A stretch of 64,000 bases of DNA from Erythrobacter sp. (GTDB lineage Bacteria > Pseudomonadota > Alphaproteobacteria > Sphingomonadales > Sphingomonadaceae): positions 310,001-374,000 of the forward strand of contig JAACTC010000005.1 of assembly GCA_009993635.1 (NCBI GenBank), in the 5' to 3' direction. The position numbers were made by a program, and so were the translations under genes. Under the pieces are notes generated by a model. That model saw only the letters and a list, made by a program, of their open reading frames with translations. It was not told where the DNA came from and ran no database searches. Shown here piece after piece: positions 6,860-61,280 of this stretch. Numbering within the stretch: position 1 is the stretch's first letter; the number at the start of each line of letters is the position of its first letter.

Positions 6860-6944
6860 CGTCACCCCGGACTTGATCCGGGGTCCCGCTTCTTCGAGCG
6901 CCGCCCAAAAGGAAAGCGGGACCCCCGCATTCGCGGGGGTGACG
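6860..6944 (+). repeat. Intergenic palindromic repeat (REP-like) between glyQ and glyS
   Basis: Outer arms CGTCACCCC (6860-6868) and GGGGTGACG (6936-6944) enclose inner arms GGGGTCCCGCTT (6880-6891) and AAGCGGGACCCC (6914-6925), with further small hairpins in each half. This is the short mobile-like palindrome common between genes in Sphingomonadales. It lies inside the glyQ-glyS transcript, ending three bases before the GGAGG ribosome site of glyS, so its folding could affect glyS translation. Confidence 0.8.
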
Positions 6945-6957
6945 ATGGAGGCCCGCA

Positions 6958-9381
6958 ATGGCTGATTTCCTCCTCGAACTGCGCTCCGAAGAAATCCCCG
7001 CGCGGATGCAGGCGGGCGCGCGCGCCGAACTCGAAAAGCTGTTCCGGCGCGAGATGGACGCGGCGGGCGTCGGCATGGGCGAGATCACCGTGTGGTCCAC
7101 CCCGCGCCGCCTCGCGCTGATCGCGCGCGGGCTGCCAAGCGAAACGCAGGCCGTCAGCGAGGAAGCCAAGGGGCCTCCCGTGGGCGCGCCCGATCAGGCG
7201 GTGGACGGCTTCTGCCGCAAGGCGGGCGTCACCCGCGACCAGCTCGAAGTGCGGGAGGTCAAGGGCCGCGAGACGTACTTCGCGGTGATCGAAACGCCGG
7301 GCCGGACGGTGCGCGACGTGCTCGCCGAAGCCATCCCCGCCATCATCCGCGATTTCGCATGGCCCAAGTCGATGCGCTGGGGCGCGGCGTCGATCTCCAC
7401 CGAAAGCATGCGCTGGGTTCGCCCCTTGAGTGGCATCGTCGCGCTGCTGGGCGACGAGGTGGTCGAGTGCGAGGTGCATGGCGTTACCTCGGGCGCGGTG
7501 ACGCTGGGGCATAGGTTCCACCACTCGGGCGACATCACGATCGGCAATGCGGATGACTATGCGGTGAAGCTGCATGCCGGCAAGGTCATCGTCGATCAGT
7601 CGATCCGTGAAGATTATATCGCGCAAGAAGCGAGGGGGTTGGCCGAGGTTTCTGGCCTAAGGCTCGTTGAAGACCACGGTCTGGTGGTCGAGAATGCCGG
7701 GCTCACCGAATGGCCGTGCCCCATTTTGGGATATTTCGACGAAGAATTTCTCGACGTCCCTCCCGAGGTCATCCAGCTTACCGCGCGGGTGAACCAGAAA
7801 TATTTTGTGTGCGAAGACAGCGCGGGCACACTCGCCAACGCCTTCATCTGCACCGCCAATATCGAGGCGGAAGATGGCGGCGCGGCGATTGTCGACGGCA
7901 ACCGCAAGGTGCTCGCCGCGCGGCTTTCCGATGCGCGTTTCTTCTGGGATGTCGACCGGCAGAAAACCCTCGCGCAACACGCCGAGGGCCTGAAGCGCAT
8001 CACCTTCCACGAAAAGCTGGGCACCGTCGCCGACAAGGTCGATCGCGTGGCCAAGCTGGCACGGTGGCTGGTGGAAGAGGGGATCGTCGGCGCATCGCGG
8101 AGTCCCCGCGAAGGCGGGGACCTCCCGCAGACGAGCGCCGGGCCGAACGAGGTCCCCGCCTTCGCGGGGACTCAGGAAGAGCTCGCTAGTCTCGCCGAAC
8201 AGGCCGCGCGGCTGTGCAAGGCCGATCTCGTCACCGAGATGGTCGGCGAATTTCCCGAGCTGCAAGGCCTGATGGGCGGCTACTACGCCCGCGCCGAGGG
8301 CCTGCCGGATGCCGTCGCCGACGCGATCCGCGATCACTACAAGCCGGTCGGGCAGGGCGACGATGTGCCGACTGCTCCGGTAACGGTGGCGGTGAGCCTG
8401 GCGGACAAGCTGGATACGCTCTTCGCATTCTATTTTGCTGAAGAGCGCCCTACCGGATCGAAGGATCCCTTTGCGCTTCGTCGAGCAGCGCTTGCAGTGA
8501 ATTCAATTCTAACCGCTTCCGGATATCGGCTCAATCTAACGGAAGCCGCATGGCGTTGGCTTTCCGCTGCTCTCGATATCCCTAAAACTTATGATCCCGA
8601 CACTAAGGTAAAGTGGCAGTACAATGATTTAACCATCCGCTTCATCGGAGATATGAACGTCTTTGACGTGAACCATATTCTCGAAACCGAAAGTTGGGGC
8701 GACCTCAAGGGGCGACTGGAGTACGCGAGCAAGCGCAAATACGACTTGGTCAGAACAAGCTTCATGGACCTCCTCGACTTCTTCGCCGACCGCCTCAAGG
8801 TCCAGCAGCGCGAGGCGGGCGTGCGTCACGACCTGATCGACGCGGTGTTCGCGCTGGGCGGGGAGGACGATCTCGTCCGCCTGCTCGCCCGCGTCCACGC
8901 GCTCCAGTCGTTCATGGAGACCGAGGACGGCACCAACCTGCTCGCAGGGTACAAGCGTGCGGCCAATATCCTGCGGAAGGAAGACTGGCAGGGCGCGGAC
9001 GATGCCCCCCACACCGGCGAGGAAGACCCGCTGGTGCTGGTCGACGATCCCGACATGAGGGAGATCGTCGCAGCGCAAATGGCCGAGAAAAACACTCACC
9101 CGGCTGGTAAAGCCCTGTCCTACACGCCCGAACCGGCCGAAAAGGCGCTGATCGATGCGCTCGACACCGCGGGCCCACAGGCTGAGGCGGCGGTTCAGGA
9201 CGAACGCTTCGCCGATGCCATGTCCGCGCTCGCCAGCCTGAGGAAGCCGATCGATGATTTCTTCGAAACCGTTACCGTCAACGACGACGAAGAGGCCAAG
9301 CGCACTGCGCGGCTGGGGCTGCTGGCGCGGTTCCGCGATGCGGTTCACCAGGTGGCCGATTTCGGCAAGATCGAGGGATAG
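6958..9381 (+). CDS. glyS: Glycyl-tRNA synthetase beta subunit, with in-frame repeat and atypical patch
   Basis: The beta subunit of GlyRS, involved in tRNA recognition. The 807-residue frame starts MADFLLELRSEEIPARMQ, contains LRPLSGI-like and ARLSDARFFWDVDR core blocks, GSKDPFALRR near 500, and the anticodon-binding end with RLGLLARFRDAVHQVADFGKI. It is roughly 60-110 residues longer than the usual 690-750 (from memory). Two causes are visible: residues 382-405 are encoded by a perfect inverted repeat (8101-8172), and residues about 494-602 come from a stretch of clearly lower GC. The frame stays open throughout, so the gene is probably functional. Confidence 0.95.
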   Translation: MADFLLELRSEEIPARMQAGARAELEKLFRREMDAAGVGMGEITVWSTPRRLALIARGLPSETQAVSEEAKGPPVGAPDQAVDGFCRKAGVTRDQLEVREVKGRETYFAVIETPGRTVRDVLAEAIPAIIRDFAWPKSMRWGAASISTESMRWVRPLSGIVALLGDEVVECEVHGVTSGAVTLGHRFHHSGDITIGNADDYAVKLHAGKVIVDQSIREDYIAQEARGLAEVSGLRLVEDHGLVVENAGLTEWPCPILGYFDEEFLDVPPEVIQLTARVNQKYFVCEDSAGTLANAFICTANIEAEDGGAAIVDGNRKVLAARLSDARFFWDVDRQKTLAQHAEGLKRITFHEKLGTVADKVDRVAKLARWLVEEGIVGASRSPREGGDLPQTSAGPNEVPAFAGTQEELASLAEQAARLCKADLVTEMVGEFPELQGLMGGYYARAEGLPDAVADAIRDHYKPVGQGDDVPTAPVTVAVSLADKLDTLFAFYFAEERPTGSKDPFALRRAALAVNSILTASGYRLNLTEAAWRWLSAALDIPKTYDPDTKVKWQYNDLTIRFIGDMNVFDVNHILETESWGDLKGRLEYASKRKYDLVRTSFMDLLDFFADRLKVQQREAGVRHDLIDAVFALGGEDDLVRLLARVHALQSFMETEDGTNLLAGYKRAANILRKEDWQGADDAPHTGEEDPLVLVDDPDMREIVAAQMAEKNTHPAGKALSYTPEPAEKALIDALDTAGPQAEAAVQDERFADAMSALASLRKPIDDFFETVTVNDDEEAKRTARLGLLARFRDAVHQVADFGKIEG
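8101..8172 (+). repeat. Palindromic element inserted in frame inside glyS
   Basis: Bases 8101-8123 and 8150-8172 are perfect reverse complements (23 bases each, 26-base spacer). Each arm is itself a hairpin, GTCCCCGC-GAAG-GCGGGGAC. The 72 bases are 24 whole codons and translate to SPREGGDLPQ...NEVPAFAGT between conserved GlyS sequence. The design resembles the intergenic palindromes of the window and, in concept, the Rickettsia palindromic elements that live inside proteins. Confidence 0.85.
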
Positions 9382-39495: not shown

Positions 39496-39592
39496 TTCTC
39501 CCCTCCCCGCGGGGAGGGGTTGGGGGTGGGGGCTCTGCCCCATCAGCCGAAGCACACCCCCACCCGACCTCCCCCTCAAGGGGGGAGGAGAA
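39496..39592. repeat. GC-rich palindromic repeat between convergent gshB and SIMPL genes
   Basis: CTTCTCCCCTCCCC at the left matches GGGGGGAGGAGAA at the right (ending 39592), enclosing GTTGGGGGTGGGGG against CACCCCCACCC. It starts eight bases after the gshB stop and directly abuts the stop of the SIMPL gene, so it may act as a two-way terminator. A third repeat family in this window. Confidence 0.7.
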
Positions 39593-61184: not shown

Positions 61185-61203
61185 GCGGAATTTCGGTGGC
61201 CGC

Positions 61204-61280
61204 TCGCCCTGAGCTTGTCGAAGGGCGGCACTTCTTTTAGCGCGGCTTCGCATCAAGAAAGACAGTGCTTCGACAGGCTC
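61204..61280 (+). repeat. Palindromic repeat between phaR and proS
   Basis: GAGCTTGTCGAAG (about 61211-61223) and CTTCGACAGGCTC (61268-61280) are inverted copies with one mismatch; CGCCCT and AGGGCG flank the left hairpin. A fourth REP-like family. It fills most of the 148-base phaR-proS gap. Confidence 0.8.

Follow-up and report, generated by a model that had tools for sequence, protein, structure and literature searches.

Repeated capture of palindromic DNA as the probable origin of an in-frame repeat in a surface loop of the glycyl-tRNA synthetase beta subunit

How does a long perfect palindrome come to be translated within the gene of an essential enzyme? This question is raised by glyS, which encodes the beta subunit of glycyl-tRNA synthetase (GlyRS) in the window, that is, the whole stretch of 64,000 nucleotides analysed here. 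A perfect inverted repeat was found in this gene at positions 8,100 to 8,173 (forward strand), with two arms of 25 nt (8,100–8,124 and 8,149–8,173) that are 100% complementary and separated by a 24-nt spacer. The sequence-only reading had described a 72-base element with perfect 23-base arms; the palindrome proved to be real and perfect, but the arms and the span had to be revised to these values. The element codes for about SPREGGDLPQTSAGPNEVPAFAGT. Each arm carries a short hairpin, GTCCCCGC-GAAG-GCGGGGAC, with an 8-bp stem and a 4-nt loop, and as judged from the sequence the left REP-like unit occupies 8,102–8,121 on the forward strand and its inverted copy 8,152–8,171 on the reverse strand. 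The whole element is therefore a head-to-head dimer of REP-like units, two inverted units with 24 nt between the outer arms, and its stem and loop sizes lie within the range of CGTC-tagged REPs (8–9 bp, 4–5 nt). It is the sole perfect long inverted repeat of the window; the remaining pairs listed, each 14 nt or longer, are 70–93% complementary. The RNA of the element is predicted to fold with −73.6 kcal/mol (z −4.4 versus shuffles).

The host frame (6,958–9,381, forward strand; 807 residues) is free of stop codons. Its identity as glyS was established by Pfam (tRNA_synt_2f, E 6.7e-177), NCBIfam (glyS, E 1.3e-206) and structural matches to solved bacterial GlyRS, and the palindrome lies in frame within this gene. 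Taken by itself, the element accounts for about 24 residues, in agreement with the sequence-only reading, and the window loop with its 52 residues is about 28 longer than the 24-residue loop of relatives without an insert. By loop comparison the net insert was approximated to 28 codons at 8,089–8,172 (forward strand), between RWLVEEGIV and LAEQAARL. In the AlphaFold model of the window GlyS (mean pLDDT 87.6, fold matching solved GlyRS), residues 374–405 appear as a loop of low confidence, in blocks with a pLDDT of about 55, flanked by helices 357–373 and 406–419, with neighbours above 90. The model thus places the insert in a loop of the HD domain that is predicted to be disordered and to lie at the surface, in line with the surface loop that the sequence-only reading had proposed to look for. 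This loop corresponds to the position between residues 379 and 386 of E. coli GlyS, inside the HD domain (341–540), and is distinct from the tRNA-contacting loop H18-19 (near 473–476). The predicted tryptic junction peptide of the window GlyS loop is EGGDLPQTSAGPNEVPAFAGTQEELASLAEQAAR.

Other parts of the protein also vary. The segment encoded at 8,554–8,766 (GlyS residues about 533–603) is hypervariable: even species that share about 80% identity in the rest of the protein cannot be aligned here, although the frame stays open in every one of them, and model confidence is low. It was considered as a second repeat insert and rejected, as its sequences are unalignable and hold no repeat peptides. 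In other species, two further GlyS loops, near residues 285–289 and 677–716 (window numbering), contain repeat-like peptides, namely in L078, L083, L021, L101, L007, L009, L120 and others.

Copies of the element were searched for in the window genome with exact patterns and fetched stretches, and all copy counts refer to these. Two further relatives of its exact sub-family were located, a diverged copy on contig C7 (98,338–98,411; 76% over all 74 nt) and an element with GAGTCCC...GGGACTC ends on contig C13 near 70.6 kb (L193), and typical CGTC REPs were found at about 7–8 loci. One CGTC-type REP dimer lies directly between glyQ and glyS (6,860–6,944, forward strand; ends CGTC...GACG); it is related to the insert inside glyS of same-genus relatives and matches the glyS loop L021 with 88% over 86 nt. 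Together with REP dimers between genes, the C7 copy and the L193 element bear out the earlier suggestion that the palindrome is related in design to intergenic REP-like elements of the same genome. The window element itself lacks the CGTC tag, its ends being GAGTCCCC...GGGGACTC. No GTAG tag was found on it, no direct repeat that would represent the target site duplication of a MITE is common to its flanks (ATCGCG and AGGAAG), and it had no match among plasmids. A search of the window genome for the RAYT transposase (PF01797) gave no match, which is consistent with the lack of transposase association of CGTC REPs, and RAYT-driven transposition within this genome was rejected on that ground. Outside glyS, the window holds copies of the CTTCGACARGCTCAG and CCCTCCCC/GGGTGGG families at 61,200–61,280 and 39,496–39,533.

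In order to place the insert among relatives, the corresponding loop was compared in GlyS of 40 relatives, 80 named genome records and family genomes. Removal of identical loop DNA, which also eliminated genomes present under both a handle and a name, left 160 sequences from Sphingomonadaceae (in the GTDB sense) and a few outgroups from other families of the order. Loop length was bimodal: 71 loops were empty (21–26 residues, about 24) and 89 were extended (at least 29 residues, with lengths ranging from about 30 to 84). Extended loops made up 44 of the 80 glyS loops in named records and 22 of 40 in further family genomes, and this fraction of about one half is only approximate because both samples favour GlyS similar to that of the window. 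The many empty loops of about 24 residues show that the segment is not universal among homologues, although no empty loop was present among the same-genus relatives sampled. The longest inverted arms of extended loops had a mean of 13.0 nt compared with 7.1 nt in shuffles. In the first set, 59 of 67 extended loops matched repeat DNA outside the loop in fetched DNA, mostly at loci of other species; the loop repeats are therefore dispersed repeat types, their multicopy status in each own genome being a separate matter.

None of the loops read was broken in frame or contained a stop codon. Because a loop was extracted only when its two flanks lay in the same frame, a broken loop would have appeared as missing; six loops missed by the first search were motif variants of empty loops, and no missing case was left unexplained. 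This uniform reading frame bears on the idea that the segment is removed or skipped, by RNA processing or ribosome bypassing, to give a protein without it. A strong hairpin with coding sequence on both sides would suit such a process, but skipping would not demand that every loop be open in frame, and we regard it as very improbable. An assembly artefact was rejected as well, since inserts occur at the same site in many independent assemblies, named isolates included.

In about 80 of the 89 extended loops the DNA contains either repeats, which belong to no fewer than four unrelated families, or the 3' ends of tRNA-Asn, tRNA-Met or tRNA-Arg genes. Classification by DNA patterns assigned 36 extended loops to CGTC-type hairpins and their kin (family A), 20 to CCCTCCCC/GGGTGGG repeats (family C), 13 to CCTCCCCG...CGGGGAGGGGGACC repeats (family D), 8 to CTTCGACARGCTCAG repeats (family B), one to a VERSRD-type repeat (family E) and five to tRNA 3' ends. 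A permissive pattern with three mismatches was discarded, its control giving about 40% as many matches. Ten extended loops remained unclassified, some of which (e.g., L010 and L016) resemble single repeat units, and a repeat was absent in L017, L022 and L434. A T-arm, acceptor strand and CCA stand at the beginning of the five tRNA loops (L083, L437, L442, L410 and L426), all in frame inside glyS, and L005 holds a sixth, decayed tRNA end. The L083 segment is 93.5% identical over 31 nt to Sphingomonas tRNA-Asn, that of L437 97–100% over 31–33 nt to tRNA-Met genes, and that of L426, a bare tRNA 3' end, 96.6% over 29 nt to Sinorhizobium tRNA-Arg. Rfam searches of the tRNA-end loops returned only sub-threshold matches, with no tRNA model among the best. 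In L083, L437, L442 and L410 the tRNA end is followed downstream by a repeat; the donor was therefore plausibly a stretch of DNA that extended beyond the 3' end of a tRNA gene and into an adjacent repeat. The window segment is thus palindromic, in frame and absent from many relatives, and elsewhere the same loop is filled by unrelated families and tRNA 3' ends. The insert of the sequence-only reading is real, and across the family it is not an isolated case.

Other genes were compared as hosts. In ppdK, the neighbour of glyS, repeats were found in three of 53 loci (L106, L153 and L143), against 44 of 80 extended glyS loops. The repeat-derived residues lie inside pyruvate phosphate dikinase, at the same site in L106 and L153. 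The ileS gene of the window genome contains two in-frame repeats of different families (contig C11, about 221.5–222.2 kb; L191 and L247), and in relatives the second of these sites is occupied by family C or empty. Interior CGTC-type insertions in five same-genus genomes were confined to glyS and ileS; hosts in eight genomes of other genera were glyS, valS, truB, an error-prone DNA polymerase, the linker of pyruvate dehydrogenase E2 and one protein without family match. Where long ORFs ran across further repeats in the genome, codon-position GC marked most of them as upstream extensions or spurious frames, and these were rejected. Among the hosts, tRNA-acting genes are in excess, but this is suggestive only, because the patterns were exact, the set was small and glyS had been chosen beforehand. 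That genes of tRNA-acting enzymes (glyS, ileS, valS, truB) are preferred capture targets, with tRNA 3' ends and nearby REPs as donors, seems unlikely; if true, translation enzymes would continually gain noncoding tRNA- or REP-derived peptides at fixed loops.

The apparent over-representation of tRNA-related enzymes, the recurrent occurrence of the insert and the very stable hairpin (the fold energy given above) would also fit an insert selected for a function, either as a regulatory loop of GlyRS or, at the mRNA level, as a hairpin by which translation is slowed or the transcript stabilised. However, the window loop and L168 read the 5' arm of the same element in different frames (SPREGGD and VPAKAGT, respectively), and the peptide is therefore not the thing that is kept. 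Sister species do without the insert, families, lengths and reading frames vary, and the structural model shows disorder, all of which makes a selected function quite improbable.

The history of the loop was followed on a GlyS gene tree built without the variable regions. At least in terms of state changes, which on a gene tree may be insertion or recombination alike, 31 switches between empty and filled loops were needed, of which supported branches force 22, and 51 when all states were considered together. A single insertion shared by descent in its simple form was rejected by this tree and by the unrelated families. In close filled/empty pairs, identity fell to about 0.45–0.76 at codons 368–378 and 0.47–0.87 at codons 411–420, adjacent codons being mostly at 0.8–0.97, and the association of residues with filled status was confined to residues 369–418. 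This narrow drop and association indicate that the loop behaves as a short cassette which includes the helix tips. Filled alleles share the right flank LADxAEQAARL (with some T/A variants), which was not seen in empty ones; with the collapse of identity beside the loop, this suggests that some of the turnover may have come about by the swapping of filled cassettes that were already present, instead of by new insertion.

These same observations would fit a single ancestral insertion that gave rise to a filled allele with flanks of its own. This allele would then have spread between lineages by local recombination, families being swapped inside it and new insertions into empty loops being rare. 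The limits of the status association, the sharp drop in nucleotide identity only beside the loop (e.g., in the pair L077/L160) and the filled loops of the basal family members L016, L011 and L143 speak for this possibility. On the other hand, families without sequence similarity and the bare tRNA 3' end of L426 meet the same junction, and replacement of one family by another would still demand repeated capture of unrelated DNA. Moreover, the Gly-Ile-Val codons GGGATCGTC (8,080–8,088, forward strand) contain a CGTC that is often the CGTC tag of the REP inserted in relatives: among 28 loops that carry a forward CGTC REP, there are 16, several of them congeneric, in which the REP directly abuts on, and shares, this native Ile-Val CGTC. 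One ancestral filled allele is thus a possible explanation, which we hold to be the less probable one.

Our observations are best explained by a tolerant GlyS surface loop that repeatedly captures intergenic palindromic DNA, a REP-like dimer residing there in the window and its peptide being a passenger rather than a selected motif; we assign this reading a probability of about 0.7. Intergenic palindromic DNA would be copied into the loop repeatedly, both through the insertion of mobile REPs and through local recombination between short stretches of homology, of which the native CGTC is an example. Because GlyRS is essential, only in-frame, stop-free events would survive, and the repeat, translated by the ribosome, would form a disordered loop that hardly affects the enzyme. 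Later the segment may be exchanged or lost as a short cassette, the tips of both flanking helices included. The untagged window element without target duplication, in a genome without RAYT, counts against capture of a REP, and no insertion in progress was observed among the sampled loops.

In-frame palindromes are known from Rickettsia, as the sequence-only reading had stated, but their occurrence outside this genus is not new. A 2013 survey reported CGTC and GTAG REPs within genes, among them tRNA synthetases, not specified by name, of Erythrobacter litoralis and Sphingopyxis alaskensis, and truB and DnaE2 are also hosts (Di Nocera et al., 2013; PMC3733652). The CGTC REPs described there resemble the inserts reported here in their hairpins (8–9 bp stem, 4–5 nt loop), head-to-head dimers, in-frame insertion of 20–30 residues into conserved genes, tRNA synthetase hosts and occurrence in alphaproteobacteria such as Erythrobacter and Sphingopyxis; the window element differs from them by its missing tag. 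In that survey REPs mostly occupy different sites per gene category (with the exception of recB in two Xanthomonas), whereas here one loop receives several unrelated families and tRNA ends in many genera. GTAG REPs associated with RAYT are similar as dimeric non-autonomous elements, but the window element has no GTAG tag and its genome no RAYT. The literature searched, mostly outside subscription journals, yielded no account of a single loop in which several unrelated families reside; single in-gene cases are known, and one loop as a landing pad common to many families appears to be new.

Rickettsia palindromic elements (RPE, about 150 bp; PMC10969869), like the WPE of Wolbachia, are palindromic DNA in frame inside housekeeping genes, and in residing within a conserved ORF the window element corresponds to them. 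RPE-7 was described in isoleucyl- and phenylalanyl-tRNA synthetases, and for RPE orthologues with inserts at the same site the authors left undecided whether a hotspot or a common origin is responsible (PMC3767692). At the glyS site, by contrast, the families clearly have nothing to do with one another, and empty sites occur as well. For the choice between a hotspot and one old insertion, the glyS loop offers a natural experiment, in which several unrelated donor families and tRNA ends are found at a single site that is empty in sister species. It makes directly measurable how protein segments originate from noncoding DNA and how well essential enzymes tolerate this.
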